A stretch of DNA of 34,800 nucleotides from Bacteroidales bacterium. GTDB lineage: Bacteria; Bacteroidota; Bacteroidia; Bacteroidales; UBA932. Where the stretch lies: contig JAGCUV010000122.1 in assembly GCA_017962705.1 (NCBI GenBank), positions 1-34,800 on the forward strand. Reading direction: 5' to 3'. Made by a program: the position numbers and the translations under genes. Of the stretch, positions 1-29,641 are shown piece by piece (within the stretch, counting starts at the first letter, position 1; each line of letters begins with the position of its first letter). The notes beneath the pieces were generated by a model. It worked only from the letters and a program-made list of their open reading frames with translations, ran no database searches and was not told the DNA's origin.

Positions 1-2433
1 ACGGACTTGTTTTTAAGTTGCCCCCCCCCTGCACCCAAATCAACTATCGACATGGGGACCGGAACCGTATCTTTCGTCGCCGGGGACAAGGTGAAGATTC
101 TCTACGGAGAGACCAGCGGCGAAGGTATTGTCCAGGAAAATGAAGGCGTGCAGTGGCTGGCCACCAATATTCCATCAACGGAAGAAGGGCCCTTCTACGG
201 TGTATATCCCAACACCATTAACGCCAGCCTCGCATCAAGCACGCTGACCCTGGAAATCCCCCGGGTTGTCAGCGGAGAATGGGCAGATGCCAACGTCATG
301 GCGGCCAAAACGACCAAAGAAGACCTGTCTTTCAGCTTCCAGCACGCTTGCGCCTATGTGGCATTCGAAGTGAGCGCAGCCGACATCACCGCCGGGTTTA
401 ACAAGTTCCAATTGGCCCGCGCGGACGGAAACGGCAAGCTGTTCGGCACCCAACGCGTCAGTTTCGATTCAGAAGGGGCTATTAGCCTGGGCGTCCAGAC
501 CGAAAATATCGGCAGTTATTTCTCCACGGTCCAGTATCTGACGAGCGCCGGCACTTATTTCTTCCCCGTGCTCGCCGGACTTTCTTTGGAAGGCGGTGTC
601 ATCGTTGGCCGCTTCAAAGACTCCAACGGCCTCCTCAGAAGTAAACTAACCAGCACCTCCCGGGGTCATATCGCCGCATTGGGCAATGTCTGCTCCAAGA
701 TGACCAATAAAGAAATCCGCTATTACATCACTCCTGATGGTGCGGGCGACGGAAGCAGCTGGGCAAATGCCGCTCCTGTCAGCAGCATTGAAACCATAGC
801 CAACGCCGCTACCAGCTCCGCCTCCGCCCCGCAATCCTGGCTGGACAAATACCATTATTTCTGCCTGAAGGGTGCCACGGGAGATGGCGCGGTATATAAT
901 GCCAACCTTTCCATCAACAGCACGGGCAACATCAATATCATAGGCGGTTATGCCGGATCCGGCACTCCGGGAACACGAGATATCAATACCTACAAGACCT
1001 ATTTGGAACAAAATGTCACGAGTTCTCCCATCGTCCTATTGAGCGGAAATGCAGGTTATATCCAATTCTACGGGCTCAATTTCCGCAACGCCAACCTATC
1101 ATCGGGCAACGGAGGGGCTGTCCGCATCAACATAGGGACAGATGCCTATTTCCGGTCCTGTTCTTTTGCGAACAACAAGACTTCCGACTCCAATTTTGGA
1201 GGCGCCCTGTTTATCGACAATGGCGCTAGCGTTACCATCGGGGAAGAAAGTGTATTTGAAGACAATTCTGCCAGTCGTGGAGGAGCCATCTATATGAGAG
1301 GGGGTTCTACGCTAAAAATTACTGACACCCGTTTCCTGGGCAATGCCAGCAAGCAGAGCGGCCACGGCGGCGGCAGCCTGTATCTATACAATGGCCAGTC
1401 AGACATATCCGACTGCTCCTTTGAGGACAACACAGCTGTCTCATACGGAGGAGCTGTTTATGCCCTTGGCGGCACGCAACGCTTTACGGACTGCACATTT
1501 ACAGGCAATTCCGCTGCCAATGGTGGAGCATTTAGCGTCCAGGGGGCTACGGCAAGCGTAGGCGTCACTGTACAAATTCAAGGCGGAGAAATCTCAAGTA
1601 ATGTATCCAACAACGCCACAGCCAACTATGGTGGCGGTGCGATTTGGATGTCGCAAGGCAACAAGGCGACCGTCCGATGCAGTGGAGTAAACTTTATTGG
1701 CAACAAGGTCGTCTCTTCGGTCGCCTCCCGTGGCGGTGCTATTTGTATGGTACAAGACAAGGGAGCGGCCTTGATGGTCAACGCCTGCGTATTCTCGGAC
1801 AACGGCTTTGAAATCACAGGGTCCAAAGCTGTCTTTGGTACGGCCATAGCCTGTCAGAACGGCAATCCCAGCAGCAATTACAACGATGCGGCCATTTACA
1901 ACTCCGTCTTCACGGGCGGCTACGCCACCGGTGCCAGCAAAGCCAACACCTGCTCCCTGATGCTGACCGGCTCAGGACTGCTGGTCAACAGCACCGTTGT
2001 GGAAAGCACCCAAAGTGGCGACGACGCAGCCCGCTATGCTAACCTTGGCGAAGGGCGAGGTGTCTTATATAATTCCATTGTTCTTAATCAAGCGGGAAGG
2101 GCCATCATCAATGTTACCAGTAGCGGATATGCAATCACCAATGCCGGTACCTTCTACCCTGCCGAAACCGACTTGGTCGACAATTCCGTCACCCAGGCTT
2201 CCCTGGGCCTGAATTTCACGACCAACCCTTACGGATCCTGGAGCGGGACCACGCCTGCCGGCTACACCAAGGGAGCGAATGCAACCGATGCTCGAGCCGC
2301 CGTCCGCAGCCACGCCGGCATCGGCGAGGCCTTTGACGAATGGCTGCTCTCGCTGGATGAGAACATTTACAGCAAATCCGGAAACGGCGCCACCCGTACG
2401 ACCCCGTTCTGGCCCGGCGCCTTCCAAAATTAA
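1..2433 (+). CDS. Fimbrillin-like / Pmp-like right-handed beta-helix surface protein, 5' end missing
   Basis: The reading frame is open at the left edge of the window, so the true start lies upstream. A TTG at position 7 could be read as a start but is unlikely. The first ~230 residues (to about base 700) resemble a fimbrillin/Mfa-like domain: a K-S-T-I-D turn, then a VSFVAGDKV strand, as in other Bacteroidales surface lipoproteins. After a GDGSSWANA segment (about 745-770) comes a right-handed parallel beta-helix, with about eight GGA-type turns alternating with FxxN turns and Cys-containing strands, as in chlamydial Pmp proteins. The C-terminus (GATRTTPFWPGAF) looks like a decayed form of the R...P.iGA.E ending common in such Bacteroidetes proteins. 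It probably sits on the cell surface as an adhesin or ligand-binding protein. Frame 1 reads LFLSC before the domain, a possible lipobox, but a nine-C tract at 21-29 makes the upstream frame uncertain. It is followed after 17 bases by the next lipoprotein gene. Confidence 0.75.
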   Translation, partial: TDLFLSCPPPAPKSTIDMGTGTVSFVAGDKVKILYGETSGEGIVQENEGVQWLATNIPSTEEGPFYGVYPNTINASLASSTLTLEIPRVVSGEWADANVMAAKTTKEDLSFSFQHACAYVAFEVSAADITAGFNKFQLARADGNGKLFGTQRVSFDSEGAISLGVQTENIGSYFSTVQYLTSAGTYFFPVLAGLSLEGGVIVGRFKDSNGLLRSKLTSTSRGHIAALGNVCSKMTNKEIRYYITPDGAGDGSSWANAAPVSSIETIANAATSSASAPQSWLDKYHYFCLKGATGDGAVYNANLSINSTGNINIIGGYAGSGTPGTRDINTYKTYLEQNVTSSPIVLLSGNAGYIQFYGLNFRNANLSSGNGGAVRINIGTDAYFRSCSFANNKTSDSNFGGALFIDNGASVTIGEESVFEDNSASRGGAIYMRGGSTLKITDTRFLGNASKQSGHGGGSLYLYNGQSDISDCSFEDNTAVSYGGAVYALGGTQRFTDCTFTGNSAANGGAFSVQGATASVGVTVQIQGGEISSNVSNNATANYGGGAIWMSQGNKATVRCSGVNFIGNKVVSSVASRGGAICMVQDKGAALMVNACVFSDNGFEITGSKAVFGTAIACQNGNPSSNYNDAAIYNSVFTGGYATGASKANTCSLMLTGSGLLVNSTVVESTQSGDDAARYANLGEGRGVLYNSIVLNQAGRAIINVTSSGYAITNAGTFYPAETDLVDNSVTQASLGLNFTTNPYGSWSGTTPAGYTKGANATDARAAVRSHAGIGEAFDEWLLSLDENIYSKSGNGATRTTPFWPGAFQN
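21..29 (+). repeat. Homopolymeric C tract (nine C) in the 5' part of the coding region
   Basis: Nine consecutive C residues lie inside the coding region of the first gene, just before the fimbrillin-like domain. Frame 1 crosses the tract as written. If the tract had eight C, the upstream frame that joins the domain would read LVFKLPPPAPKSTI, which looks more like the strand normally preceding this domain. Frame 2 upstream has a stop (TAA at 14-16). The tract may be a slipped-strand phase-variation site or a sequencing/assembly length error. Confidence 0.6.
1081..1815 (+). repeat. Pmp-like GGA / FxxN beta-helix repeats
   Basis: This is a protein-level repeat inside the first gene. Successive turns read GGAV, GGAL, GGAI, GGGS, GGAV, GGAF, GGGA and GGAI, interleaved with FRNA, FANN, FEDN, FLGN, FEDN, FTGN, FIGN and FSDN. 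Several strands carry SCSF, DCSF or DCTF. The spacing is about 25-35 residues, consistent with rungs of a parallel beta-helix. The DNA is not an exact tandem repeat. Confidence 0.8.
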
Positions 2434-2450
2434 AAATATTTATTGATTGC

Positions 2451-5400
2451 ATGCGTATGAAGAAACGGATCCGCTTGACTTTGCTTGCCTTGCTGGCGAT
2501 TGCCTGTGCGAAAGAGCAAGACATTGAAGACAAGACCGCTATCGCGCAATCTTCCAACACCGTGAGCGTCTCCTTACCCGAGACGCTCAAAACGGCTTTA
2601 CAAGCCCCTGATGCCGGAATCTATCCGGTGGTCTGGTCGGAGGGAGATTGCATTTCGACCAATGGCGTCACTTCTGTTCCGCTCGCCTCTTCGGAGGCGG
2701 GAAAGAAAGAAGTCGTCTTCCAATTCCAAGGCGACCTGTTTTTGCCGTTCAACATCCTTTATCCGGCCTCAGCGTCCGGCGATGTCGTCACCTTCTCCCC
2801 CACGCAGAATTACACCGCAGGAAGTTTTGCCAGCGGGGCTGCGCCCATGTGGGGAACTACAGATGACTTCGCCAATGTGACACTGCACCACCTGTCCGCC
2901 GTTCTGAAATTCCCCTTCAAGGCCTCGGGGTCCGGTCAGAGCATCACCCGGGTGATGGTGTCCGCACTGGGCGGCGAGCCTCTCTGCGGCGATTTTACGA
3001 TGAAACTTTCCGGGGAAGGCCTGTTTAACGGCAACATGAAGGCTCCGGCATCCGCCCCTTCCACCGTAGAACTCAACTGTGGCTCGGGGGTCGCCCTGTC
3101 CACTTCCAGCGCCACGGACTTCTTCGTATGCATTCCCGCGGGCACCTACGTCAAGGGGTTCAAAGTCATCGCCGTTGACAACAACAGCCAGGCAATGACG
3201 CTGTATTTTTACACCAATACGACCCCTACCGACATCGAAGCAGGCAAAGTGATTGAATTCCCCGCAAGTGCATTTTCGGCTACAGAATCCATTCTGACCA
3301 TCTCTACGGTGGGACAGTTGCAGACCTTTGCTGCCAACGCGTCCGCCTACAAAAAAGTCGTTTTGCTAAACGACCTCACTTGGCCGGACGGGAACGCCTG
3401 GACGCCCATCAACGGTTTTTCCGGTGAGTTTGACGGCGGCATGCACTGTGTGACTGGGCTCAATGCTCCCCTCTTCAACACCCTCTCCAACGAAAGTATT
3501 GTCCGCAATCTGACGCTGGAGTCCGACATCACCCAACCCAGTAATGGAGTCATTGCCACCCTGGCTTGCCTGTTCAGTTCCGGACGCATCGTCAACTGTC
3601 ACGCGAAAGGCAGCATCCAGGTGGACGCCGATGTGGAGCAGGCCGGAGGTCTGGTGGCCAAAATGAACGGCACCTCCTGCCGCCTGACTGATTGCAGTTG
3701 CGCAAGCGACATCCGCATCAACGGCCAAACCGCAAGCCTGGCCCGGATCTGGTGCGGAGGTGTCGTAGGGCACGTCCAGAACGGCATTTTGAGCAACTGC
3801 CGTTTCTCCGGCACCCTGGTGCTGGCCGACACCTTCAAGATGATTTTCTGCGGTGGCATCGTTGGACGAGACGATGCTGCAGCCGGGGTGGAAAATTGCA
3901 CCAACACCGGTTATATCAACATTGATTCCTCAGCCCGGGCCTCTTCGCAGAGTTTCATCGGCGGTATCGGCGGACTGGTGGCAGGTACAGCGACAGGTTG
4001 CGTCCACAGCGGAAACCTGGTATGCCAGGGCACCAGCCTGATCAACCTCTACGTTGGAGGCATCTGCGCCTCCTGCCGGGGCGGAGCCTCGGATTGCGTC
4101 AATGACGGAGCCGTCAACTTTTCCGTCACGGGACTTACCAATCTCGCCTATGTCGGCGGCGTCATCGGCATCCTGGATTCCGGTAGTGCTCTGACCTACC
4201 GTCAGCTCACCACAACAGAAAATGCCTATGTCAACATTGACGCTCCTGTAGTTGGACAAAACCTGGGCTACATCAGCGTCGGCGGCATTACCGGCGGCTG
4301 CAATATGAACAATGTCACCCTTGAAGACTGTATTCACAAGGGACGTATACGGGCTAACAACGCGTATGAAAGCTACGGGACCCACGGCCTGATACTGGGC
4401 GGCATCACCGGCAGTACGCTCCGCACCGTCGCGATGTCGGTGACCATCAGCGGATGCGTCAACCAGGGTTCCATCCATCTGGAGGAACTGGAGAAATCCA
4501 GCAATTATGTCTATGCGGGCGGCATCATCGGTCTGGCCGCCAGCGGCGACGCCGACTCCAAGGCACTTACCTTGACCGTTCGGAATTGCTCCAACCAGGG
4601 CGATATCACCCGCCACGTGGACAGTATGACCTACACCAGCAACCGGCGCTCCTTCTGCGGCGGGATTTGCGGCGCCATCGGCGGGGACAACCGCGTCTAT
4701 GAAAGTTACGACCGTATCAATGCCACATTGACCGCCTGCTCGAATTCCGGCACGCTGATTTTCAACCGATATACCACCCAAAACCAATTCAAGGAAGTTG
4801 CGACGGTGGAATCGTACACCGGCGGCATCGTCGGAGTGAGCAAGAGCATCGGCAACTTCCGCACGCACATCGTGCGCTGCGAGAACAGCGGCAAGGTTCT
4901 GTCAACTTCGGGATACAATGGAGGCATCGTCGGCTTCGTCCGCTGCGGCACCCTCATCTATGGAGAGAAAGTAGGAGACACCTGGGAGTACACCCGCAAC
5001 AGCGGCATCGTCGGGATGTTCGACACCAACAACGTCAAAGAGACCGGAAGCGGCTACATGAACGCGGGCGGTATCGCCGGCTGTCTTGACAGCAGATATT
5101 CCAACAATCGCATTGAATATTGCTGGAACTCGGGTTATGTAGCAGCCTCTACGGCGGGAACGGTGGGAGCCGGCGGCATTGTCGGGGACCTTCGCCTGAA
5201 AGACGCCGTCACCCATTGCAAGAACAGCGGCACCGTCCGTTTCAAACTTTCGCCCAACCTGTCTGCGGACAAGTGTGTCGCCACCGGCCAGATTTCCGGA
5301 GTCAGCGCCGATTACACCATCAGCTACTGCGGTATCGGCGGGCAGTATGGCCGGAAAGGGAACGGAACGGCAGGTCTGGACAACTTCGGCGGAGACGAGC

Positions 5401-5522
5401 GATATGTCTTCTCGAAATTCATTTACGCGCTCACGGACAACATCACCAGTCAGGCCGGCGTTGACATGCTGGCGCCCGGATGCGTTTGGTGGAATGGTGT
5501 GGACAAACTGGATTGGGAATAA
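2451..5522 (+). CDS. Large surface lipoprotein: fimbrillin-like N-terminus plus GLUG-type beta-helix repeats
   Basis: This is a 1023-residue predicted lipoprotein. The signal peptide ends in LLAIAC, with lipidation at Cys19. An ATG at 2457 (MKKRIRLT) is an equally good start. Residues ~35-280 resemble a fimbrillin-like domain (VSVSLPETLKTAL, then a VVWSEGDCI strand). From about residue 375 to 930 there are at least 13 rungs in which a C-x-x-x-G-x-[IV] strand (for example ENCTNTGYI, RNCSNQGDI, THCKNSGTV) alternates with GG-[IV]-[VIG]-G turns, as in GLUG-motif proteins. The fold is expected to be a long right-handed beta-helix on the cell surface. The gene follows its neighbour by 17 bases and precedes a third surface lipoprotein by 18 bases, so all are probably co-transcribed. 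The ligand is unknown; an adhesive or glycan/nucleic-acid-binding role is inferred only from architecture and context. Confidence 0.85.
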   Translation: MRMKKRIRLTLLALLAIACAKEQDIEDKTAIAQSSNTVSVSLPETLKTALQAPDAGIYPVVWSEGDCISTNGVTSVPLASSEAGKKEVVFQFQGDLFLPFNILYPASASGDVVTFSPTQNYTAGSFASGAAPMWGTTDDFANVTLHHLSAVLKFPFKASGSGQSITRVMVSALGGEPLCGDFTMKLSGEGLFNGNMKAPASAPSTVELNCGSGVALSTSSATDFFVCIPAGTYVKGFKVIAVDNNSQAMTLYFYTNTTPTDIEAGKVIEFPASAFSATESILTISTVGQLQTFAANASAYKKVVLLNDLTWPDGNAWTPINGFSGEFDGGMHCVTGLNAPLFNTLSNESIVRNLTLESDITQPSNGVIATLACLFSSGRIVNCHAKGSIQVDADVEQAGGLVAKMNGTSCRLTDCSCASDIRINGQTASLARIWCGGVVGHVQNGILSNCRFSGTLVLADTFKMIFCGGIVGRDDAAAGVENCTNTGYINIDSSARASSQSFIGGIGGLVAGTATGCVHSGNLVCQGTSLINLYVGGICASCRGGASDCVNDGAVNFSVTGLTNLAYVGGVIGILDSGSALTYRQLTTTENAYVNIDAPVVGQNLGYISVGGITGGCNMNNVTLEDCIHKGRIRANNAYESYGTHGLILGGITGSTLRTVAMSVTISGCVNQGSIHLEELEKSSNYVYAGGIIGLAASGDADSKALTLTVRNCSNQGDITRHVDSMTYTSNRRSFCGGICGAIGGDNRVYESYDRINATLTACSNSGTLIFNRYTTQNQFKEVATVESYTGGIVGVSKSIGNFRTHIVRCENSGKVLSTSGYNGGIVGFVRCGTLIYGEKVGDTWEYTRNSGIVGMFDTNNVKETGSGYMNAGGIAGCLDSRYSNNRIEYCWNSGYVAASTAGTVGAGGIVGDLRLKDAVTHCKNSGTVRFKLSPNLSADKCVATGQISGVSADYTISYCGIGGQYGRKGNGTAGLDNFGGDERYVFSKFIYALTDNITSQAGVDMLAPGCVWWNGVDKLDWE
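3577..5245 (+). repeat. Cys-ladder GLUG-type protein repeats
   Basis: These are repeats within the 1023-residue lipoprotein. About 13 copies of x-x-C-x-x-x-G-x-[IV] occur at intervals of roughly 30-60 residues (VNCHAKGSI, SNCRFSGTL, TGCVHSGNL, SDCVNDGAV, EDCIHKGRI, SGCVNQGSI, TACSNSGTL, VRCENSGKV, EYCWNSGYV and others). Each is followed by a GGIVG-like turn. The Cys is almost invariant in position, which would stack Cys side chains along one face of a helix. At least two rungs (around YTRNSGIVG and NAYVNI) lack it. Confidence 0.75.
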
Positions 5523-5526
5523 ACGC

Positions 5527-5532
5527 GGGAGG
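5527..5532 (+). promoter_or_regulatory. Shine-Dalgarno-like site before the third lipoprotein gene
   Basis: GGGAGG lies 8 bases before the ATG at 5541. Strong Shine-Dalgarno sites are uncommon in Bacteroidetes, so this one supports the chosen start. Confidence 0.4.
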
Positions 5533-5540
5533 TTGCAACT

Positions 5541-6341
5541 ATGAAAAGAATTGGATTTTTGATTCTAATATTGGCAGTGACCGCTTGCAATTTGAAATTG
5601 CAACAGTCCGATGAGCCCATTGTAAAAGAAACCATATCCCTGGTACAAGTCAATATCGCTCCCTTCACCCTGAAGAATGCAGGTACGGGCGAGGCCATCC
5701 CGGGAGAAAGTTCGCGAATCTGGCGCAGTGAGGAAAAATTAGGCATCATTGGAGAAGGAGTTGCCAACAAAGCCTTTTTTCTGCGCGAAGCCTACGATGG
5801 TGTACGTTCGCAGAGCGCGGAGTTTTATGGTGAACCTGTCAGTGGCAGCAACTTGACCGCCTATTTCCCCTGGAACGAGAACGGAACGGTTGGCGAGACT
5901 GCCGTTCAGCAATATGAAGCAGACCCTTACGACCATTTCACCCGCAACAGTCCGCTTTCCGCCCATCTGACCGGAGGGAACCTGACTTTTGTCTATTCCG
6001 GGGGGCTGATCAAGCTCACTTGCAGCGAAGAGTTGGGAATGGTGCAATCGCTCCATATCCAAAGTGCCCGATGGGGCTGCGAAGTGACGGGTATCAATAC
6101 CGTCTGCAGCGCAGCGAAACCTTTGATTGTCTTTGTTCAGGTTCCAACCGGAGATTACCGGAATTTCAATGTCACCTACCGCTCTGCCACGTCAACGGTC
6201 TCCATGCCGGCTCTGGCGGAAATCACCATCAAGGATTACGACTACGTCAGCATCACCGCCCGCCAGCAATCCTTCACAGACGGCATCGACAACTTCCAGG
6301 GAGAAGGCGGCAGTTATTCGGACCAACCCAACAATTACTAA
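5541..6341 (+). CDS. Fimbrillin-like lipoprotein
   Basis: This is a 266-residue predicted lipoprotein. The signal peptide ends LAVTAC, with the lipidated Cys at residue 16. The mature part has the layout of a fimbrillin/Mfa-like domain: a VQVNIAPFTL strand, an IWRSEEKLGI strand, a TAYFPWN strand (the usual 'Y-P' position), LTFVYSGGLIKLTC, and a late IVFVQVPTGDYRNF strand typical of the family's second half. It carries no repeat domain, unlike the two genes before it, and may be a shorter structural or anchoring partner. It is followed by the next ATG after only 5 bases. The family is reasonably clear but the specific function is unknown. Confidence 0.75.
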   Translation: MKRIGFLILILAVTACNLKLQQSDEPIVKETISLVQVNIAPFTLKNAGTGEAIPGESSRIWRSEEKLGIIGEGVANKAFFLREAYDGVRSQSAEFYGEPVSGSNLTAYFPWNENGTVGETAVQQYEADPYDHFTRNSPLSAHLTGGNLTFVYSGGLIKLTCSEELGMVQSLHIQSARWGCEVTGINTVCSAAKPLIVFVQVPTGDYRNFNVTYRSATSTVSMPALAEITIKDYDYVSITARQQSFTDGIDNFQGEGGSYSDQPNNY

Positions 6342-6346
6342 CGGCT

Positions 6347-6961
6347 ATGAGAAAGTATCTGTATATTATCGCTGCGGTTTGTCTGCTTTGCTCCTGCCAA
6401 AAGGAAGGTATCCAGACGCGTGAAGAAAACGGTGGCGTCCGAACGGTAGGAGTCACCTCCGGGACCTTTCCGGTACTGGTCCTGACGGAAGGGGTATGGA
6501 TGGCAGAGTCCACTGATTCCTGGATTCATATCAAGGAGGAATGGCACAAAGACAAGGCCAGTTTCATCGTCAAATACGACTCCAACGAATCCACGGATGG
6601 AGACCGCCGCTTTAACCGCGTCGGTACCATCCGCGTGAAGACCTGGGACGGTGCCATCGTCAAGAGCATTTCTCTCCGTCAATATGGAATGGGACCGTTC
6701 ATCAGTCTGCCCGACTCAAAGATCAGCACGGCGGGAGGTCGTCAAAACATTCCCTTCCTCACCAATCTGACCGACCGGGAAAGACCTTCGCTGATATTCT
6801 CCTCCGACTCTCCGTCCATTATCGCTCCGGTATGGGACGAAGACGGGGAAAGCGTATCCTTTGATACGACCGCAGGGACGACGGGCGGGGTCATTCAAGT
6901 TCAATTCACCGATGCCTGGGGACAGGTTTTCACCGCATCGGCAACCATCACCAGGGAGTAG
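6347..6961 (+). CDS. BACON-like lipoprotein
   Basis: This is a 204-residue predicted lipoprotein. The ATG at 6347 gives MRKYLYIIAAVCLLCSC, with lipidation at Cys17; the longer upstream reading of this frame overlaps the preceding gene and is not credible. Residues ~35-125 look like a BACON-type Ig-like domain: VWMAESTDSWIHI, FIVKYDSN, a GTIRVKTWDG strand and a closing SISLRQYG strand. A second beta-rich segment follows (ISLPDSKISTAGGRQNIPF... GVIQVQFTDAWG). BACON domains are usually spacers or weak ligand binders in SusC/SusD loci. It lies 5 bases after the fimbrillin-like gene and 4 bases before the next lipoprotein gene. Confidence 0.7.
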   Translation: MRKYLYIIAAVCLLCSCQKEGIQTREENGGVRTVGVTSGTFPVLVLTEGVWMAESTDSWIHIKEEWHKDKASFIVKYDSNESTDGDRRFNRVGTIRVKTWDGAIVKSISLRQYGMGPFISLPDSKISTAGGRQNIPFLTNLTDRERPSLIFSSDSPSIIAPVWDEDGESVSFDTTAGTTGGVIQVQFTDAWGQVFTASATITRE

Positions 6962-6965
6962 CGCT

Positions 6966-7655
6966 ATGAGAAAGATACTATACCTTATTGTTATGGTGGG
7001 CGCGCTCGCGTCCTGTGGGAAAAAGGCACTCGATCCGAACCGCCCCCTGGATGTGGAATTCGAATCCGACGTCGCCTATGAAGCTGACACCCTTCTGTAC
7101 CTCAACCTGTCCGAAGAAACTTCGTTGAACATGATGACGTTGCAGAATTATATCAAAGGGAAGAATTTCGCAGCTGTGATGCTTTTTGCATCCACTCTCC
7201 AAGCGACTCAGATTCAATCCCTGGGAACCGTCTGGGGGTATCCCCACCAGTATGTAGGCACGGCAAGTGGAGGCAAGCAGGCCTTCATTCTCTGCAAAGA
7301 AAAAGCCCAGGGGAGTATCACTACGCTTGCCGGGGCGGTAGCCGCCACCTTCCCCAGTTATACGCTGGTCAGCGGCAGTTACAACCCGTCGCTGCTGACA
7401 GATACGAATGCGTTGAAAGGCCGGATTATTTTGTTCGAAGCCGGCGAAGATCCTTCGGAAGAATACTATAGGCTGAGTTTCTGCAACTGCATCAACTACC
7501 AGTGGGGCATCGAGATGGCAACCTGCCGGAAGGGAAAACAAGATTACATCTTCGCCCGCCCTGCGCAGTGGTCTCTGATGGGGGTTATCTCGATGGATAA
7601 AGAAAGTGTCTGGGTCCACCATCCGCTTCGTTTCACGATTAAAAAGGAGAAATAA
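6966..7655 (+). CDS. Lipoprotein of unknown function, possibly a decayed EEP (endonuclease/exonuclease/phosphatase) fold
   Basis: This is a 229-residue predicted lipoprotein. The ATG at 6966 gives MRKILYLIVMVGALASC, with lipidation at Cys17. I do not recognise a family with confidence. The pattern LLYLNL, then LQNYIKGKNFAAVMLFAST, WGYPHQYVG, GKQAFILCKEK, GRIILFEAGED, KQDYIFARP and finally VHHPLRFTI follows, in order, the strands of EEP nucleases (first strand Asn, QE, G-I-I-S-K, GDFN, IDYIF, SDHYP). If that reading is right, the catalytic residues are missing: AS stands where QE is expected, and HH replaces the final D-H. It could then be a binding protein with a nuclease-like fold. It sits directly before the SusC gene (3 bases), so it is probably an accessory surface lipoprotein of that transporter. 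Confidence 0.6.
   Translation: MRKILYLIVMVGALASCGKKALDPNRPLDVEFESDVAYEADTLLYLNLSEETSLNMMTLQNYIKGKNFAAVMLFASTLQATQIQSLGTVWGYPHQYVGTASGGKQAFILCKEKAQGSITTLAGAVAATFPSYTLVSGSYNPSLLTDTNALKGRIILFEAGEDPSEEYYRLSFCNCINYQWGIEMATCRKGKQDYIFARPAQWSLMGVISMDKESVWVHHPLRFTIKKEK
7644..7649 (+). promoter_or_regulatory. Shine-Dalgarno-like site before the SusC-type gene
   Basis: AAGGAG lies 9 bases before the ATG at 7659, inside the last codons of the preceding gene. It may raise translation of the transporter relative to its neighbours. Confidence 0.4.
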
Positions 7656-7658
7656 ACG

Positions 7659-10600
7659 ATGAAAAAAATCATAGTTCTTTCCTTTGCCCTATTCTTCTGC
7701 CTGACGGGATTCGCCCAAAAAAGCAAGAAAGTCTCCGGTGTCGTAGCCGATGACACGGGACTTCCCGTCATCGGAGCGACCGTCATGGTGGAAGGGACAC
7801 AAAACGGTGTCGTTACCGATGAAAATGGTAAATATACGATTCAATGTGCTGAAAGAGACGTGCTGGTGTTTTCCTGCCTGGGCTATGAGGACTACAAGTC
7901 TGAGGTAGGTGCCTCTACGCAGATCAATGCGGTGATGCGCACCAGCAACAAGATGCTGGACGAACTGGTGGTCGTCGCGTATGGTACGCAAGCCAAATCC
8001 GACCTGACCGGTTCCGTGGGCGTGATTAATGTGGATGATTTGACCAAGGCTCCCATCATGTCCGCCGACCAGGCCCTGCAAGGAAGAGTGGCCGGCCTGG
8101 AGGTTATCAACGGCAACGGTGATCCGAGCGCCGCTGCTACGATGCGTATCCGGGGTACCCGTTCCATCAACGCCAACAACGACCCGTTGCTGGTTGTGGA
8201 CGGTGTAGTGGACGCGGTGGAAAGTTTCGCTGACATCAACCCGGCTGACATCAAATCCATCTCCGTACTGAAAGACGCGTCTTCGACGGCAATGTATGGT
8301 TCCCGGGGCGCCAACGGCGTCATTCTGGTCACCACCCGCTCCGGTGGAAACACAGAAAAACTCTACATCCGTTTCAATGCCGATCTGGGTGTCGCCACCC
8401 TGCCGCGGGAACTGGATGTGATGAATGCGACGGAATTTGCAGAATTCCGCAACGACGCCCGCTACATGTCTTACTACAGGGACGGGAATGTCGATCAATA
8501 CACCCCCTACTTCGAGCATCCCGAGCAGTTTGGAGAGGGGACCAACTGGCAGCGCCTGCTGACCCGCCCGGCCCTCAAACAATCCTACTTTCTCGCCCTG
8601 AATAACGGAGATTCCAACCGAAAAATCTTCTGTTCGGTGGGTTATAACAACACCGATGGTATCATCATCGGAACCAACTCCCAGCGCGTCACGAGCCGTT
8701 TCAACTTTGAGTGGAAATGGTTCAAAAACCTGAAGGCCTTCATCAATGCCAACTATACCTATACGACGAACAAGGTCAACAACATCACGATGAATGGCTA
8801 CAGTCCCAACGCTGCAGCCTGCCTGAGCCCGATGCTCAACCAGGACGATATCTGGAATGTCTTCGGCGATTCGGAAACAGTCGGAGGTGTGCTGTTCGAC
8901 AACCCGTACCTCAAAGCCACCCGGGAACAGAATGGCAACAAAAAACACTTTTTGGTGATATCTCCCAGGCTTGAGTTCACTTTCCTCAAGAACTTCCTGC
9001 TCAAGACGACTTTCACCTACACGCTCAGCATGCTGGACAATTTCTATTATTCTCCGTCCACGATGCCCGTTGCCCAGGCCAGCAACAGGGGCGGTACGGC
9101 GCGCAGGGGGACTGTTGATCGGAATGCTTTTCTCAGCGAGACGACCCTGGGTTGGAAAAAGACCATCCAGAAGAAACACAAAGTCGATGCTCTCATCGGT
9201 TTCACGGCGGAAAGCAGCAAGATTGACAGCAACAGCCTCAGTGGAACCGGATATATGGATGACAACGTCACTTTCAAAAATATGGGCACGCTGATGGACG
9301 CCCGCACCCTGACACCGTCCTCCAGCATCACCGAGGTTGCCCGCATGTCCGTGCTGGCCCGCGTCAATTACTCCTACGCCAAACGCTATTACCTCACCCT
9401 TACGGGACGTGCCGACGGTTCATCTATCTTTGCAAAAGGACACAAATGGGGCTTTTTCCCGGCCGCCGCACTCAAGTGGAACCTCAGCGAAGAACGCTTC
9501 TTGCGCAAAGCCCGTTCCAAATGGCTGGACGACCTGTCCCTGCGGGTGAGCGCCGGCCTCAGCGGCAATGACGGCCTGTCCAGTTACGCTTCCCAGGCCA
9601 CGCTCAACAACACCCTGACCGGCTGGCTTTTTAACAGCGGAAGAAGCGTCGCCTTCTATCCCTCCCGTCTGGAAAACAACAACCTCACCTGGGAAAAGAC
9701 CTTTTCCTATAATGTGGGTATCGATTGGGAAATGTTCAAGGGACGGCTTAAGATAACGCTGGAAGGATACCAGTCCTTCACCCACGACATGTTGCTGGCG
9801 GTGCAGAACGCCGTCGTCACCGGCTACAGCAACCGCTACCAGAATTGCGGAAGCACCAAAAACTCCGGTCTGGAATTCAGCATCACCTCCAATAACATTT
9901 CCAAAAAGAATTTCAGCTGGACCACCACTTTCACCATCGGGCACAACGTCCAGGTAGTCACGGATACCGGGGTGGGCAATGAGTATATATCCACCTACAG
10001 CCCGACCGGCGGACAGATGTTCTACGGCTATGTCACGGGCTACCCGGTCAATTCACTGTGGGGCTACCAATATGCCGGCGTGTGGCACAACAGCGCCGAG
10101 CGCGCCCGCAACGCCAACACCAGGGCTTTTGTTTCCTACCAGGACCGCGATGGCTACGCCAAATACGTGGATGTTAACCACGACGGCGTGCTGGACAAGA
10201 GAGACTGGATCTATCTGGGAAGCACCGACCCCCTGTTCAGCGGCGGTTTCAACAATGAATTCGTGTTTTGGAACAAACTCACGCTGGGCATCTACTTCAC
10301 TTACTCCTACGGTGCCCGGATGTACAACCTGACGGAAATGTACCTGGGAAGCGGCAGCGTCAACTCCAATGCCTACCGCTATATGATCAACCGCTGGCAT
10401 CCGGAGCGCAACCCGAATTCCGACATCGTGGGCGCCTACTGCCAGGATCGTTTCGGCAGCAGCCGTTTTGTGCACGATGCTTCCTACATCCGTCTTAAGA
10501 CCCTCAACCTGTCCTATCGCTTCTCTTTCAAAAAGAAATGGTTGCGCGAGTTGAGCCTGACACTATCCGGAGACAATTTACTGCTCTTCACCCCGTACAA

Positions 10601-10700
10601 CGGCTATGATCCCGATGTCACAAACGGTTCCCGCCGCATTGACAACGGAGCGTATCCGTATCCCCGCACGTATTCATTCAGCCTTGTTTTGAGATATTAG
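7659..10700 (+). CDS. SusC/RagA-type TonB-linked outer-membrane transporter
   Basis: This is a 1013-residue protein. It has a signal peptide (cleavage after TGFA, about residue 19), then a carboxypeptidase-like regulatory domain at ~24-105 (VSGVVADDTGLPVIGATVMVEG). A TonB-box-like DELVVVAYGTQ segment follows, then the plug at ~112-225. The plug carries the family signatures DPLLVVDGVVD and SISVLKDASSTAMYGSRGANGVILVTT. The remainder is a beta-barrel ending in an aromatic residue (SLVLRY), as usual for outer-membrane barrels. The length is normal for the family. SusC proteins import large ligands through the outer membrane with energy from TonB-ExbBD, using the neighbouring SusD lipoprotein as a lid. 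The SusD-type gene starts 3 bases downstream. The substrate cannot be read from the sequence. Confidence 0.97.
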   Translation: MKKIIVLSFALFFCLTGFAQKSKKVSGVVADDTGLPVIGATVMVEGTQNGVVTDENGKYTIQCAERDVLVFSCLGYEDYKSEVGASTQINAVMRTSNKMLDELVVVAYGTQAKSDLTGSVGVINVDDLTKAPIMSADQALQGRVAGLEVINGNGDPSAAATMRIRGTRSINANNDPLLVVDGVVDAVESFADINPADIKSISVLKDASSTAMYGSRGANGVILVTTRSGGNTEKLYIRFNADLGVATLPRELDVMNATEFAEFRNDARYMSYYRDGNVDQYTPYFEHPEQFGEGTNWQRLLTRPALKQSYFLALNNGDSNRKIFCSVGYNNTDGIIIGTNSQRVTSRFNFEWKWFKNLKAFINANYTYTTNKVNNITMNGYSPNAAACLSPMLNQDDIWNVFGDSETVGGVLFDNPYLKATREQNGNKKHFLVISPRLEFTFLKNFLLKTTFTYTLSMLDNFYYSPSTMPVAQASNRGGTARRGTVDRNAFLSETTLGWKKTIQKKHKVDALIGFTAESSKIDSNSLSGTGYMDDNVTFKNMGTLMDARTLTPSSSITEVARMSVLARVNYSYAKRYYLTLTGRADGSSIFAKGHKWGFFPAAALKWNLSEERFLRKARSKWLDDLSLRVSAGLSGNDGLSSYASQATLNNTLTGWLFNSGRSVAFYPSRLENNNLTWEKTFSYNVGIDWEMFKGRLKITLEGYQSFTHDMLLAVQNAVVTGYSNRYQNCGSTKNSGLEFSITSNNISKKNFSWTTTFTIGHNVQVVTDTGVGNEYISTYSPTGGQMFYGYVTGYPVNSLWGYQYAGVWHNSAERARNANTRAFVSYQDRDGYAKYVDVNHDGVLDKRDWIYLGSTDPLFSGGFNNEFVFWNKLTLGIYFTYSYGARMYNLTEMYLGSGSVNSNAYRYMINRWHPERNPNSDIVGAYCQDRFGSSRFVHDASYIRLKTLNLSYRFSFKKKWLRELSLTLSGDNLLLFTPYNGYDPDVTNGSRRIDNGAYPYPRTYSFSLVLRY

Positions 10701-10703
10701 CGT

Positions 10704-12338
10704 ATGAAGAAGATATTACCTTTCCTGTTTTTGGCCTTGACGGTCTCATCCTGCTCGCTGGACGAGAAGATCGAATCCTCCTCGGTCAAGGAAAAATACT
10801 ATAAGACGAGTGCGCAGTGCCTTACCGGGCTCAACGGCTGTTATATACCCCTGCGCAATATATACGGCAACATCAGTTACTTTGTCGTCACGGAATGCCA
10901 GGCCGATATGATTTACTATAACGGCACGGATGTGATGGATGCGATTCTGGAAGTCTCCCAATCCAAGCCGCAGTTCGGCACGACGATGTGGACCCAGGGT
11001 TATATCGGCGTATCGCGTTGCAACGCGATGGAAGCCGCCATCAGGAAGGCGCCTATCAGCGACGAGGAAAAAGCGCCTCTCATGGCGGAAATGACTATCT
11101 TAAGAGCGTTTTACTATTATATTCTGACGGCCAACTTCGGCGACGTTCCCTTCTACGAGGAAGAGGTCACCGATGCGAACAATGACGCCATTGCCACCCT
11201 GCCGCGCTATCCGGCAAAAAAAATCCGCGAGAAGATGGTGGATGAGCTTCGAGAATGGATTCTCGACAAGAAGGCCCTGTCTTTCACTCGAACCTATGAC
11301 AACAACAGCAATCCCGAACACCGTATGGGCGCTGCCGTTGGCTTGATGCTGGCCGGAAGGATGTCGCTGTGGGACGGATATTGGAACGAAGCTGTCGAAT
11401 TTTTCTCCAAACTGGAAAAAATCTACGGCAATCTTGAGTCCTATCCGGTCTCCGATATCAAATTCCGCAACAAATACACCCGGGAGTCCATTTTTGAAGT
11501 GTCGTACACCGTGGATGACTACAAACTTCAGGTGTATCATTCCCTCTCTTCCCGTTGCCTTCCCAGGCGGGAACAATACGCCAGTTCCAACCCTGACGAG
11601 GAACTGGATATCCGAAGCCAGGATGACGAAGTGGATTACTACGCCGGCATCGGCATCCCTGAACTGGGCCGGTATTGTACTACCCGCAATCCCTTCCGTC
11701 CCACCAACAAGGCATACAGCCTCCTTCCCTACTCCGGCAATGACAAACGGACCTGTTCCAGCAGAGCTGGCGGCGATGTGGAAGACGGCGGTGGCTGGAT
11801 GGCCTGGGGCTGGACCGGCTACACGCCCGAAGACGACCGCAGTACGGATAAGCCCCACTGGCGCTTTTTCTCAGGCGTCAGTCAGACATCCCGTCCCTAT
11901 CTGGGCGACAAATTCTGGTGCTTCGGCATGCACTACACCTACGACAGCAACAACATCAAGGTATTCCGTTATGGCGGTGCCGTTCTGGGACTGGCGGAAG
12001 CCTGGCGTGAACTAGGTGACCTGGACAAATCCCTCAGCTATCTGAACAAAGTCCGGCGCAGGGCCGGCGCAAGCGAATATACAGGAAGTTTCACGGCCGA
12101 CAGGATTCGCCAGCTGATTATGGATGAATACGGCATCGAGCTATTCGGTGAATACAGCCGCAAGCACGACTTGGTTCGCTGGGATGTCTGGAACGATGTC
12201 GTCTCGGAGAACACCAATGCCGGTCGGTTGAACCAGAAGAGAAAGCCCTGTCATCGCTACTACCCCATCCCCTCCGAGCAGATTACCTACTCTCGCGGAG
12301 CGCTTGACAACAAAGAATACGAAGAATACGGATTATGA
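10704..12338 (+). CDS. SusD/RagB-type substrate-binding outer-membrane lipoprotein
   Basis: This is a 544-residue lipoprotein. The signal peptide ends LTVSSC, with lipidation at Cys17. The typical N-terminal start (SLDEKIESSSVKEKYYKTSAQCLTGLNGCY) and the TPR-like helical segment (LMAEMTILRAFYYYILTANFGDVPFYEE) are present. So is the C-terminal NxxR region (LSYLNKVRRRAG, LIMDEYGIELFGEYSRKHDLVRW, YPIPSEQI). The length is normal. SusD caps the SusC barrel at the cell surface and binds the ligand. The gene overlaps the next one by 4 bases (ATGA at 12335-12338), which suggests translational coupling. Confidence 0.97.
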   Translation: MKKILPFLFLALTVSSCSLDEKIESSSVKEKYYKTSAQCLTGLNGCYIPLRNIYGNISYFVVTECQADMIYYNGTDVMDAILEVSQSKPQFGTTMWTQGYIGVSRCNAMEAAIRKAPISDEEKAPLMAEMTILRAFYYYILTANFGDVPFYEEEVTDANNDAIATLPRYPAKKIREKMVDELREWILDKKALSFTRTYDNNSNPEHRMGAAVGLMLAGRMSLWDGYWNEAVEFFSKLEKIYGNLESYPVSDIKFRNKYTRESIFEVSYTVDDYKLQVYHSLSSRCLPRREQYASSNPDEELDIRSQDDEVDYYAGIGIPELGRYCTTRNPFRPTNKAYSLLPYSGNDKRTCSSRAGGDVEDGGGWMAWGWTGYTPEDDRSTDKPHWRFFSGVSQTSRPYLGDKFWCFGMHYTYDSNNIKVFRYGGAVLGLAEAWRELGDLDKSLSYLNKVRRRAGASEYTGSFTADRIRQLIMDEYGIELFGEYSRKHDLVRWDVWNDVVSENTNAGRLNQKRKPCHRYYPIPSEQITYSRGALDNKEYEEYGL

Positions 12339-12988
12339 AACGACCTGCTATATTCCTTTGGGGGATTTTGCTGTTCAGTACGATTTCCTGTACGGACTAC
12401 CTGTCCCCGCGCTACAACGACATCGTCGCCCTGGGGGCCACCAACAAAAGCGTCACCATTGATGCTGAGCCCAACACCTGTATGTTCCGCCTTACCTCCA
12501 ATGTGGATTTTGGCGCGTATGTCGTATCGGGTTCGGAATGGCTGAAATTTGAAGAGAATGGCTCCGACCAGCTCCTGTGCTATGCCTCCCGCAGGAATAT
12601 CAAACTGCGCGCAACGGCCAACCGGGGATTCCCTCGGATGGGCATCGTTACCCTGGAGGCCGAGGGGCGGGCGGATACCCTCTTCGTCAAACAGGAAGGC
12701 CAACTGGAGCCGTTTGTGCAATTGCAGGTAACCGACCTGACGGCTGCTCCTGAAGGTGGGACCTACCGTTTCACTCTTGAAACGAACCTCCCTGCCCGCG
12801 ATATCCGTACGCAGGCGGATATGGAAGGAATACTGAGCGTTACATACGAAGAAAGCACCCTCACGGTGGTGATGTCCCCTAACGACGGCCGCAACGACCG
12901 TCACATCCATCTGGATGTATACAGCATCACCCAATGGAGGGAAAAAATCGGATCTGTGTTGAATATCACCCAAAAGAAAATCCAATGA
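12335..12988 (+). CDS. BACON-like surface lipoprotein
   Basis: This is a 217-residue predicted lipoprotein. The signal peptide ends FSTISC, with lipidation at Cys19. The first Ig-like unit (~35-125) has BACON features: FRLTSNVDFGAYVVSGSEWLKF, IKLRATANRGFPRMGIVTLEA and a closing DTLFVKQEG strand. A second unit (~130-217) repeats the layout: AAPEGGTYRFTLETNL, IHLDVYS and VLNITQK. In SusC/SusD loci this position is often taken by a surface-glycan-binding-type (SusE/F-like) lipoprotein, so an accessory ligand-binding role is reasonable. It overlaps SusD and the S1/P1 nuclease gene by 4 bases each, linking nuclease and transporter translation. Confidence 0.72.
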   Translation: MKRPAIFLWGILLFSTISCTDYLSPRYNDIVALGATNKSVTIDAEPNTCMFRLTSNVDFGAYVVSGSEWLKFEENGSDQLLCYASRRNIKLRATANRGFPRMGIVTLEAEGRADTLFVKQEGQLEPFVQLQVTDLTAAPEGGTYRFTLETNLPARDIRTQADMEGILSVTYEESTLTVVMSPNDGRNDRHIHLDVYSITQWREKIGSVLNITQKKIQ

Positions 12989-13770
12989 AAAAGTTCATGC
13001 TACTGGGACTGCTTCTGACCGTTGTGTCAGGGTTGTCCCCCAAAGCCTCGGCCTGGGGTGTCCGCGGACACGAAGCCATTGCTTACATCGCCGAACTGAA
13101 CCTCAAACCCGAGACCAAAGCCATTGTCGAACATTACCTCGGCGGTAAATCCATTGTCTATTACGCCGTCTATCTCGACCAGATGCGCTTCATTCATGAG
13201 TGTTCCTTCATCTACAAGACGCTCCATCACGGCGCCGAATTCACCGCTGATCTCAAATCCAAGGGCCGGGACGGTAGCGCCGAGGATGCACTCTTCCAGA
13301 TGACTAAAAACATGGAACGGCTGGGAAACGGGCAATACAAGCATCTGCCCGACTCCGTCGTCACCCTCGCCATCCAGTGCTTCATCCATCAGATGGGAGA
13401 CGTCCACTGCCCCGTCCATATGAGCGTGGACGGCCGGAAAGCGAACTTCCCCATCACCCGCTTCGGCAAAAAATCCATGTTCCATGCGTTCTGGGACGAT
13501 ATGCCTGAGACAGGACACGACTGGGGTTATATGGAATACGGTCATCAACTCAACCGTTGCACGCCAGAGCAAATTGCAGAAATCACCAAAGGCAGCCTCT
13601 ACGACTGGGGTGAAGAAGTCATCGTGGAGACCTTGCCCGTGTGGGACTACGCAGCGGAAGGCGGCGAACTGGCCAAGCCCTACATCTATAAGGTAGTAGA
13701 CATCATGGACTCCATGATAATCAAAGGCGGATATCGCCTGGCCTATGTACTGAACACAGTTTTCAAATAG
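12985..13770 (+). CDS. Secreted S1/P1-family nuclease
   Basis: This is a 261-residue protein. The ATG at 12985 overlaps the previous stop by 4 bases and is followed by a signal peptide ending KASA. The mature protein starts WGVRGHEAI, so Trp24 becomes residue 1; its amino group is the first zinc ligand in this family. The ligand pattern of P1 nuclease is present in order: Trp24, His29, Asp65, His81 (or 82), His135, Asp139, His145, His167 and Asp171, including HxxxDxHCPVH and HAFWD. The length fits. S1/P1 enzymes cut single-stranded DNA and RNA and often remove 3'-phosphates, using three zinc ions. The signal peptide lacks a lipobox, so the enzyme is periplasmic or exported. Its fixed place after SusC/SusD suggests it processes imported or surface-bound nucleic acid, which is an inference. 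Confidence 0.9.
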   Translation: MKKFMLLGLLLTVVSGLSPKASAWGVRGHEAIAYIAELNLKPETKAIVEHYLGGKSIVYYAVYLDQMRFIHECSFIYKTLHHGAEFTADLKSKGRDGSAEDALFQMTKNMERLGNGQYKHLPDSVVTLAIQCFIHQMGDVHCPVHMSVDGRKANFPITRFGKKSMFHAFWDDMPETGHDWGYMEYGHQLNRCTPEQIAEITKGSLYDWGEEVIVETLPVWDYAAEGGELAKPYIYKVVDIMDSMIIKGGYRLAYVLNTVFK

Positions 13771-13780
13771 TCGGAACAAG

Positions 13781-14677
13781 ATGAAAAACAAGATAAGTAT
13801 CCTCCTGCTTGCGGCCCTGATGGGCCCGTGCGCCCTGTGGGGCGCGGAACCCGCCGTCACCGGACAACCCGTCAAGAAAAACTCCGTCGGAACGGAAGAT
13901 TTCACCATCATCTCCCTGGAACTGGGCTCCTACAACAAGGAACACCGCTGGGAAGACAAAGTTCCCGGTATCGCGGAGATGGTCAAGGTTGAGGCGCCCG
14001 CCGTTGTCGGATTCCAAAGCGCCAGCACGGCCAAAGTCGAAGACTTGGATATGGTCCTCGACGGATACGACTCTTTCGGAGACGCTACCGACGACGGAGA
14101 GACCAAAGGCCGCATCAACGCCATCTACTGGCGCAAAGACTGCCTGAAACTGGTCAAGTCCGGTACCTTCTGGCTAGGCGAATCTCCGGACATGCCCGGT
14201 TCCATATTTGACGGCGCTTCGCAGGCTTGCACGGCCACCTGGGGCATCTTCACCATCAAGTCCAGCGGACGCAAGTTCTTCTTCCTGCACACCTCCCTCG
14301 ATGTCAACTCCGAGAAAGTCCGTCCCTTGCAGGCCAAACTGATTTTGTCAAAGATGGCAGAATATGCACCCGGCCTTCCCTGCATCGTGGCGGGAGATTA
14401 CCGTTCCTTCCAGGCGGGCTTGTTTGGCAAGGATATGAACAATCCCTGCGTCGTGATGGTGCAGAGCATGATTGACGCCCGCCGCCTGGCCCTCTCCGGG
14501 GATGAAGGCAAGACGGTCAACCACTTTGGCGCCAAGGGCGGCAATGTCAAGGATTTTGTCTTCTATACGGACAATTTGGAATGCCTGGTCTATGACATCC
14601 TCACCAACGAATACGCCGGTATCAAATACCTCGCCATCCACAACCCCATCAAGTGCATCCTTCGATTCAGGAAATAA
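13781..14677 (+). CDS. Secreted EEP-fold protein with degenerate active site (likely pseudoenzyme)
   Basis: This is a 298-residue exported protein with a signal peptide of about 22 residues (cleavage near LWGA). The EEP fold is recognisable from strand order and from the FWLGESPDMPGS motif (130-141), which matches the FWLSETPD.PGS of secreted Bacteroidetes EEP proteins. Most catalytic residues are replaced: the first-strand Asn is Glu47; the metal-binding Glu of the QE motif is Ser80 (Gln79 kept); the NTHLDH motif reads H-T-S-L-D-V (170-175); the GDFN Asn is Arg208 (Asp206 kept); and the SDH Asp is Ile286 (His287 kept). Loss of the metal-ligand Glu and of Asn, His and Asp argues against normal phosphodiesterase activity. 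It may bind a phosphodiester ligand or protein partner. It starts 10 bases after the S1/P1 nuclease gene and ends the operon, converging on a minus-strand gene 7 bases away. Confidence 0.8.
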   Translation: MKNKISILLLAALMGPCALWGAEPAVTGQPVKKNSVGTEDFTIISLELGSYNKEHRWEDKVPGIAEMVKVEAPAVVGFQSASTAKVEDLDMVLDGYDSFGDATDDGETKGRINAIYWRKDCLKLVKSGTFWLGESPDMPGSIFDGASQACTATWGIFTIKSSGRKFFFLHTSLDVNSEKVRPLQAKLILSKMAEYAPGLPCIVAGDYRSFQAGLFGKDMNNPCVVMVQSMIDARRLALSGDEGKTVNHFGAKGGNVKDFVFYTDNLECLVYDILTNEYAGIKYLAIHNPIKCILRFRK

Positions 14678-15776: not shown

Positions 15777-15777
15777 A

Positions 15778-20854: not shown

Positions 20855-20880
20855 ACGCAAATTTTAATCCGCTAAGTTAG

Positions 20881-27251: not shown

Positions 27252-27748
27252 TTTTCCAGAAAGGCCAGCAAAACGGGCACCGACAACAACAGGTTGGCCA
27301 CCAGGGAAGTTCCAAAAGTAAGCAGGCAAGGCAGCACGCCTCTTTCACCGGCAGCGTCCACCGCCACATACAAGACCAGGAAAAGAGCCGTGCAGAGCAG
27401 GGTGCATCCGAGGATGCGGGGCATCCCCCCTTTTCGCCAGGAAATCACTTCTCCCCGGGAGACCAGTTCTTCGTTGAAAAAGCGCACCAACAGGAAACGG
27501 CGCACCAGGGCGACAGGAACCAAAGAGAAGGCATTGAGGCCCAGGATGCCGTCCGCCAGAAAATCGACCGCCAGACCACTCAAGAAAGCGACCAGCATCA
27601 ATCGAAGGGTGGACCATTGGGTTGGCAGACAAAGCACCATGGCCGGAAGCAGGGTCAACACACACCACGGACCGGTCTGGAACAAGTGACCGATGAGCAC
27701 CTGAACGAGCAACAGCAAGAAAAAGAGGAAAGATACATTCCGGTTCAT
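27248..27748 (-). CDS. mreD: MreD, rod-shape-determining membrane protein
   Basis: This is a 166-residue hydrophobic protein with about five membrane segments. GLAVDFLADGILGLNAFSLVPVALVRR matches the conserved D-x-L-x-x-x-x-x-G motif region of MreD. It overlaps mreC and mrdA by 4 bases each. It belongs to the elongasome, bridging MreC and PBP2 in the inner membrane. Confidence 0.9.
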   Translation of the reverse strand: MNRNVSFLFFLLLLVQVLIGHLFQTGPWCVLTLLPAMVLCLPTQWSTLRLMLVAFLSGLAVDFLADGILGLNAFSLVPVALVRRFLLVRFFNEELVSRGEVISWRKGGMPRILGCTLLCTALFLVLYVAVDAAGERGVLPCLLTFGTSLVANLLLSVPVLLAFLEK

Positions 27749-29564: not shown

Positions 29565-29594
29565 ATCACGTTAATTTTTCTGTCTAAAAGTTTG

Positions 29595-29624
29595 TAAAGA
29601 TACGAAAAAATCAACGCTTGTAAA
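29595..29624 (-). promoter_or_regulatory. Candidate mreB promoter (Bacteroidetes type, imperfect)
   Basis: On the minus strand, TATCTTTA (29602-29595) is one base off TAnnTTTG. TTTA (29624-29621) lies 18 bases further upstream in place of TTTG at 19-21. The -7 element ends 30 bases before the mreB ATG. It is the only non-coding space before the mre genes, but the match is weak. Confidence 0.35.
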
Positions 29625-29641
29625 GAGAAATAATGAGTTTT

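Follow-up and report, generated by a model that had tools for sequence, protein, structure and literature searches.

A SusCD-type operon of a Bacteroidales genome with an S1/P1-family zinc phosphoesterase and a probable EEP pseudoenzyme

The DNA analysed here, referred to as the window, is a 34,800-nucleotide stretch from a Bacteroidales bacterium (GenBank assembly GCA_017962705.1). It comprises an entire contig (JAGCUV010000122.1, here C68) of a 2.14-Mb metagenome-assembled genome (MAG) that is 79.6% complete. Its plus strand carries a run of ten genes (positions 1-14677) in which the SusC/SusD pair of a polysaccharide utilisation locus (PUL), recognised by Pfam and TIGR04056, is accompanied by surface lipoproteins, a secreted S1/P1-family protein and a secreted EEP-fold protein (Table 1). 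The interpretation towards which we lean is that this operon provides SusCD-type outer-membrane uptake for a phosphodiester-bearing carbohydrate or another organophosphate, and that the zinc phosphodiesterase does the work of the EEP enzyme found in sister loci. New here is the combination of an S1/P1 protein lacking the residues that hold the nucleobase with one EEP protein that is clearly a decayed enzyme and another that may be, in an operon whose sisters retain an intact EEP.

The S1/P1-family protein and the EEP-fold proteins

The S1/P1 protein of the window matches PF02265 at 92.7 bits, against a cut-off of 29.5, and is the only match to this family in its 79.6%-complete genome. It keeps all nine zinc ligands of P1 (W24, H29, D65, H82 or H81, H135, D139, H145, H167 and D171). 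When 76 rows from the genus and family (70 of them distinct) were aligned with P1, the eight His/Asp ligands were present in 76/76 and the N-terminal Trp in 74/76. In addition, an Arg at residue 68 of the window protein aligns, by eye, with Lys68 of S1 and Arg74 of SmNuc1.

The passages of the S1 account that deal with base binding give Phe81 and Asp83 as the base-holding pair (PMC5201275), and the equivalent passages for SmNuc1 give Tyr89 and Asn91 (PMC11705217). In P1 numbering the pair occupies positions 61 and 63, as Phe/Tyr plus Asp/Asn. No such combination of an aromatic residue with Asp or Asn is present in the window protein, which reads H-H-G-A-E against H-F-I-D in P1, and both ways of pairing the His residues fail. 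Compared with P1 (1ak0), S1 (5fb9) and SmNuc1 (8qjl), the window protein is thus alike in family, in the nine zinc ligands and in the Lys/Arg beside the cluster, but is without the Phe/Tyr61 and Asp/Asn63 that stack against and hydrogen-bond the base. An earlier, sequence-only reading of the window had described an intact S1/P1 nuclease; the metal site is indeed intact, and the nucleobase-holding pair is missing. Across the alignment the pair, as Tyr plus Asn or Asp, is kept in 36/76 rows (31/70 distinct) and replaced in 40/76, including the window. It is also absent from all eight further S1/P1 rows whose genes are chained to SusC or SusD. A scan for closest relatives with the window S1/P1 protein found nothing.

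The last gene of the operon encodes the EEP-fold protein, whose nearest solved relatives are 3mpr (E 1e-24) and 4c1r (E 1.1e-24). It matches a profile of its relatives at E 2.1e-51 and does not reach the Pfam model of EEP; the homology proposed in the sequence-only reading therefore holds. Because 4c1r is recorded as a mannosyl-6-phosphatase, the nearest recorded activity is that of a sugar phosphatase and not of a nuclease; 4c1r is taken here to act in a mannan locus. Active-site residues were compared with 25 relatives from the fetched loci, one further sequence (L152_7) having been dropped since, by length and fill, it was matched in a part outside the EEP domain. Eight residues are invariant in 25/25 relatives (N47, E80, H172, D206, N208, D258, D286 and H287 in window numbering), and we take these columns to belong to the EEP active site. 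Five of the eight are replaced in the window protein (N47E, E80S, H172S, N208R and D286I), and as a result it is probably a dead enzyme, as far as can be told from its sequence. The reading frame of the gene itself is open and starts with a signal-like N-terminus; in a tree of 27 rows its branch (2.45, against a median of 0.32) ranks third in length. The possibility of two active nucleases in the operon was rejected on the loss of these five residues.

Gene E, directly upstream of SusC, may be a second and strongly decayed EEP protein. At the same position L179 has a clear EEP lipoprotein (PF03372, E 7.9e-16) and L182 a sub-cut-off match (0.0012); the gene of L178 at this position has no Pfam EEP match but groups with both. 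A chain of profiles leads from L179/L182/L178 to L176 (9.3e-12, with a larger profile), from there to the E family (4.3e-7) and on to the window protein (4.6e-6). The small L178/L179/L182 profile aligned with three E proteins at a probability of 62.8 over 67 N-terminal columns. Counting against decay from an EEP, window E compared directly with the L178/L179/L182 profile reaches only 0.036, window E is not listed below E 5 with the larger profile, and a profile-profile test of the E family against EEP matched in the signal peptide only. Resting on the profile chain, descent of gene E from an EEP protein is judged rather probable. In L042, L142 and L145-L147 a single gene of approximately 330-360 residues fuses a D-like part with the domain found at the E position.

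Related SusCD loci and the nucleic-acid reading

A SusD search across 400 genomes of the genus gave 49 with a match at E 1e-90 or better, the genome of the window included. The eight nearest others (G440, G542, G429, G405, G253, G284, G499 and G282; 74-96% complete) provide the eight nearest SusCD loci, L131-L138, all from MAGs and two of them cut short. SusD identity to these is 51-54% in the genome search and 49-53% by blastp. The nearest named relatives of SusD come from MAGs labelled Bacteroidales, Bacteroidia or Alistipes, with sources that include goat and sheep rumen, buffalo reticulum and horse faeces.

Much of the operon is conserved among these loci. The BACON-domain lipoprotein encoded at 12335-12988 has a homologue in 8/8 and an EEP gene is present in 6/8. 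Homologues of gene B lie upstream of SusC in many related loci, those of gene C occupy the same position in L131-L136, and those of gene D do so in L132-L136, at 36-39% identity. The order B-C-D-E-SusC-SusD-BACON-EEP is found in L133, L134 and L136, in each case with an intact EEP and no S1/P1 gene; L133 and L134 have a small extra gene before BACON, whereas L136 has a shortened BACON frame and no call for the small gene. L131, L132 and L135 have the same core plus further enzymes, L137 is disturbed downstream of SusD and L138 is a 7.4-kb contig. The open reading frame caller is a simple longest-frame picker that misplaces some genes, for instance in L140, L176 and L182, where a longer frame on the opposite strand displaced a SusC or SusD frame.

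An S1/P1 gene was seen in 0/8 of the nearest SusCD loci, and PF02265 was not found in seven of the eight genomes. The remaining one, G282, has it on a different contig, where the 12 kb read gave no SusC/SusD match. A conserved SusCD-S1/P1 unit was therefore rejected. The sequence-only reading had proposed a possible nucleic-acid foraging system, to be checked by gene order, and had named SusCD pairs conserved in relatives without the nuclease as a finding that would tell against it. A dedicated system of this kind would be expected to conserve the nuclease with the SusCD pair, and the nearest pairs are instead conserved without it.

The extra enzymes of the sister loci point towards carbohydrate. 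By Pfam, L131 and L132 encode DUF6259, DUF5696, WbsX with GH28, a protein of metallo-beta-lactamase fold, an EEP protein extended by a long additional region and a histidine phosphatase fused to GH28; the carbohydrate-enzyme genes sit in the same run, downstream of SusCD. The extra enzymes of L135 resemble these in length and sequence start. Farther upstream, sister loci encode additional surface and EEP-domain proteins, GH31 (L156), GH88 (L154) and a protein resembling glucuronyl esterase (L152), at places where sharing of an operon with SusCD was not established, and the loci of other relatives hold GH43, GH2 and GH5-like enzymes. Glycoside hydrolases upstream in the same operon, named in the sequence-only reading as a further finding that would tell against it, thus have a looser counterpart in these relatives. 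An HTCS gene (hybrid two-component system) lies upstream of a B-type gene in L144 (Pfam) and, by similarity to L144, in L177, L180 and L181; HTCS regulators are typical of carbon PULs.

Set beside these data, foraging for nucleic acid, in which SusCD would import oligonucleotides and the S1/P1 protein would trim DNA or RNA in the periplasm, is improbable. It is consistent with the PF02265 score, the full set of zinc ligands and the Arg at the place of Lys68/Arg74. It also accords with the visible operon, whose ten genes gave no Pfam hit for a glycosidase, lyase, sulfatase or complete peptidase; below the cut-off, gene B matches the repeats of an M26 peptidase model, and the statement of the sequence-only reading that such enzymes are absent stands for the visible part only, because gene A is truncated at its 5' end by the contig end. 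The nucleic-acid reading is weakened, however, because S1/P1 is unseen in the nearest loci, the base-holding pair is missing, the EEP protein is probably dead, and related loci contain carbohydrate, NAGPA and GDPD enzymes. Of the scheme put forward earlier, capture, import and a secreted phosphodiesterase-type enzyme fit the anatomy; the data do not support nucleic acid as what is taken up, and its alternative of another phosphodiester polymer survives. The earlier account was, in short, right about anatomy and probably wrong about substrate. By title, no nucleic-acid SusCD system was found in the open-access literature searched.

Two side observations concern related loci. A DUF5107 protein with TPR repeats recurs downstream of SusCD (L178:14391-17696 and L139:2436-5699). 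The genome of the window has a second SusCD locus (L053, contig C101) that encodes two EEP-domain proteins, of which one has PKD and PQQ-type repeats and the other a Mfa-like part, together with a GH27-type protein (Melibiase_2), GH2 and a purple-acid-phosphatase-like protein.

Phosphodiester-type enzymes, known systems and the favoured reading

More distant SusCD loci do contain S1/P1 genes. In L145, L146 and L147, whose SusD proteins are 42-45% identical to that of the window, and in L149, an S1/P1 protein of another subfamily is encoded downstream of SusCD, and in L145, L146 and L149 it is accompanied by an NAGPA phosphodiester glycosidase. S1/P1 and SusCD form one chain in L146 and L147, lie within 10 kb with a broken chain in L145 and are farther apart in L148. 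L145-L149 are no unbiased sample, because they were fetched for SusD and S1/P1 matches on a shared contig. Another SusCD is found with S1/P1 and GDPD in L047 and L049, the former with an additional protein that has a sub-cut-off EEP match. S1/P1 is chained with SusC or SusD in L109, L120 and L123 as well, where blastp gave no GDPD match; Pfam scans did not take in these three loci or L147. Taken together, these SusCD loci tend to be accompanied by phosphodiester-type enzymes, although none of these is constant.

Linkage was counted in 39 loci picked by S1/P1 alone, from an initial 44 (L098 and L104 were dropped as shorter than 10 kb, and L113, L118 and L121 for want of a recognised S1/P1 frame). 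S1/P1 and GDPD share one gene chain in 9/39, all nine without the base-holding pair, which is 0/8 of the loci with the pair and 9/31 of those without it (p 0.16), so that a link between GDPD and pair loss was not established. Side by side in the genus, S1/P1 and GDPD form a recurring pair in L096, L097, L103, L104, L105, L106, L107 and L130, with no SusCD in the same chain.

Flavobacterium provides a known precedent for SusCD operons that include phosphodiesterases. In the portion of the F. johnsoniae account available (PMC8115612), PUSI sets two periplasmic phosphodiesterases, listed under pf00149 and pf16670, beside PusCD1, PUSIII and PUSIV have low-phosphate lipoproteins that resemble polygalacturonase, and the authors propose phosphodiester scavenging, with lipid head-groups and nucleic acids named as likely targets. 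The window resembles these PUS loci in that a SusCD complex stands beside phosphodiesterase(s) in place of carbohydrate-active enzymes, its own gene being a phosphodiesterase by predicted family. The PUSI enzymes are not of the S1/P1 family, whereas that of the window is; a response to phosphate depletion is demonstrated for PUS, while the window is known from its genes; and a decayed EEP protein is a feature of the window that does not appear in that part of the PUS account (PMC8115612).

By analogy, the SusCD pair and phosphodiesterase of the window might serve to acquire phosphate, and not carbon, from lipid head-groups, glycerophosphodiesters or mixed organophosphate. The pairing of PusCD1 with phosphodiesterases and the polygalacturonase-like lipoproteins favour such scavenging, as do the nine pair-less S1/P1-GDPD chains and the presence of GDPD in both L047 and L049. 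Nevertheless, no GDPD or phosphomonoesterase was recognised by Pfam in the window operon, sister loci hold carbohydrate enzymes and more distant loci an HTCS regulator, and scavenging for phosphorus appears unlikely.

A second point of comparison is provided by Bacteroides-type PULs with an EEP sugar phosphatase (4c1r). SusCD and an EEP-family protein are common to these and to the window, and the sister loci keep an intact EEP, some with carbohydrate enzymes; the window differs in that its EEP protein lacks the five invariant residues and an S1/P1 gene is present.

Uptake of a phosphodiester-bearing carbohydrate or other organophosphate, the reading favoured here, would proceed as follows. 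Surface lipoproteins A-E, with SusD and the BACON protein, would capture the material, and SusC, judging from its family, would import it via TonB. The secreted trinuclear-zinc S1/P1 protein would cleave a phosphodiester bond, either at the cell surface or within the periplasm, a chemistry suggested by the intact metal site. In sister loci an EEP-family enzyme with all invariant residues occupies the last place in the operon, and its counterpart by position in the window appears decayed; a decayed EEP beside an S1/P1 gene suggests that the zinc enzyme has taken over. Gene E may be an older decayed EEP that was kept as a lipoprotein, perhaps as a binder. A phosphodiester-bearing glycan is judged the best-fitting substrate, given the carbohydrate enzymes of relatives (GH28, WbsX, DUF6259, DUF5696, GH31, GH43, GH2 and GH5-like), their histidine phosphatase and the company that S1/P1 keeps with NAGPA or GDPD in SusCD loci.

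Several points weigh against this reading. SusC/SusD is in the same chain as S1/P1 in 0/8 loci with the base-holding pair and 5/31 of those lacking it (p 0.56); for a distance of up to 10 kb the counts are 1/8 (L056) and 9/31 (p 0.65). The missing pair is thus a fact about the window protein, with no statistical tie to SusCD established, and a base could be held by other residues of S1/P1. In the window operon itself Pfam shows no carbohydrate enzyme, and since the SusCD relatives are only 49-54% identical the substrate may differ. The EEP protein retains D206, D258 and H287. Moreover, the 27-row EEP tree was unresolved and did not place it as an orthologue of the L133/L134/L136 proteins, its nearest rows being others; replacement of the EEP is consequently argued from gene position.

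The same counts bear on whether the S1/P1 gene is a passenger, inserted by chance into an operon for an unrelated substrate such as an ordinary phosphate-free glycan. Its absence from view in the sister loci would fit, as would its location outside the SusCD gene chain in 26/31 loci without the pair and 8/8 with it. The 4-base overlap of the BACON and S1/P1 genes, the intact metal site and the recurrence of S1/P1 in or near SusCDs of the same lineage (L145-L147) argue otherwise, and make a passenger very unlikely.

In a broader version, held here as a tentative possibility, the EEP fold would twice have become a non-catalytic capture protein (gene E and the last gene), an S1/P1 protein without nucleobase binding would have become the cutter, and the S1/P1 proteins of gut Bacteroidales would include glycan or glycerol phosphodiesterases annotated as nucleases. 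If so, many S1/P1 'nucleases' of the genus may not be nucleases, as the 40/76 rows without the pair would indicate, and the EEP-fold lipoproteins encoded next to SusC may serve in binding. A 'nuclease' beside SusCD need not mean feeding on DNA or RNA. To our knowledge, phosphodiester-linked glycans and organophosphates have been little studied as gut nutrients.

Operon layout and flanking genes

According to the sequence-only reading, no gap among the ten genes exceeds 18 bases and two pairs overlap by 4 bases, and the coordinates confirm this: the gaps are 17, 18, 5, 4, 3, 3 and 10 bases, and the overlaps lie between SusD and BACON (12335-12338) and between BACON and S1/P1 (12985-12988). Its assignments of SusC, SusD, BACON and S1/P1 were likewise upheld, by TIGR04056, PF07980, PF13004 and PF02265. 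From promoter and terminator scans at the operon 3' end nothing was used.

Table 1. Genes of the window operon and of its flank, with supporting matches
Feature	Coordinates	Strand	Evidence
Gene A: right-handed beta-helix protein of the surface with Chlam_PMP repeats, truncated 5' by the contig end	1..2433	+	PF02415 E 4.1e-13; TIGR01376
Gene B: 1023-aa lipoprotein, GLUG-like repeats, fimbrillin-like N-terminus by eye	2451..5522	+	PF05342 repeat match, weak, sub-cut-off
Gene C: 266-aa lipoprotein, fimbrillin-like by eye	5541..6341	+	no Pfam match
Gene D: 204-aa BACON-like lipoprotein by eye	6347..6961	+	no significant Pfam match
Gene E: 229-aa lipoprotein directly 5' of SusC; possibly strongly decayed EEP-fold domain	6966..7655	+	E family profile chain
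SusC/RagA TonB-linked outer-membrane transporter	7659..10700	+	TIGR04056 E 1.6e-235
SusD/RagB lipoprotein	10704..12338	+	PF07980 E 4.2e-21, PF14322 E 3.5e-10
BACON-domain lipoprotein	12335..12988	+	PF13004 E 3.1e-06, over cut-off
Secreted S1/P1-family zinc phosphoesterase (by sequence)	12985..13770	+	PF02265 E 4.5e-26
Secreted EEP-fold protein, pseudoenzyme by sequence	13781..14677	+	3mpr/4c1r E 1e-24
Surface or exopolysaccharide gene set	14685..25404	-	
RodA/FtsW-type gene	23950..25404	-	
Rod-shape genes, then IspD	23950..30664	-	
Peptidase S46 family protein, 744 aa	30861..33095	-	PF10459 E 2.7e-166

From 14685 onward the genes lie on the strand opposite to the operon. The surface or exopolysaccharide set, convergent with the SusCD operon, comprises glycosyltransferases, a TupA-like ATP-grasp protein, a sub-cut-off MatE-like protein, a radical SAM/SPASM protein and a 363-aa protein without a Pfam match. 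It is adjoined by the rod-shape genes, which encode RodA/FtsW-type and PBP2-type proteins, MreC and MreB.

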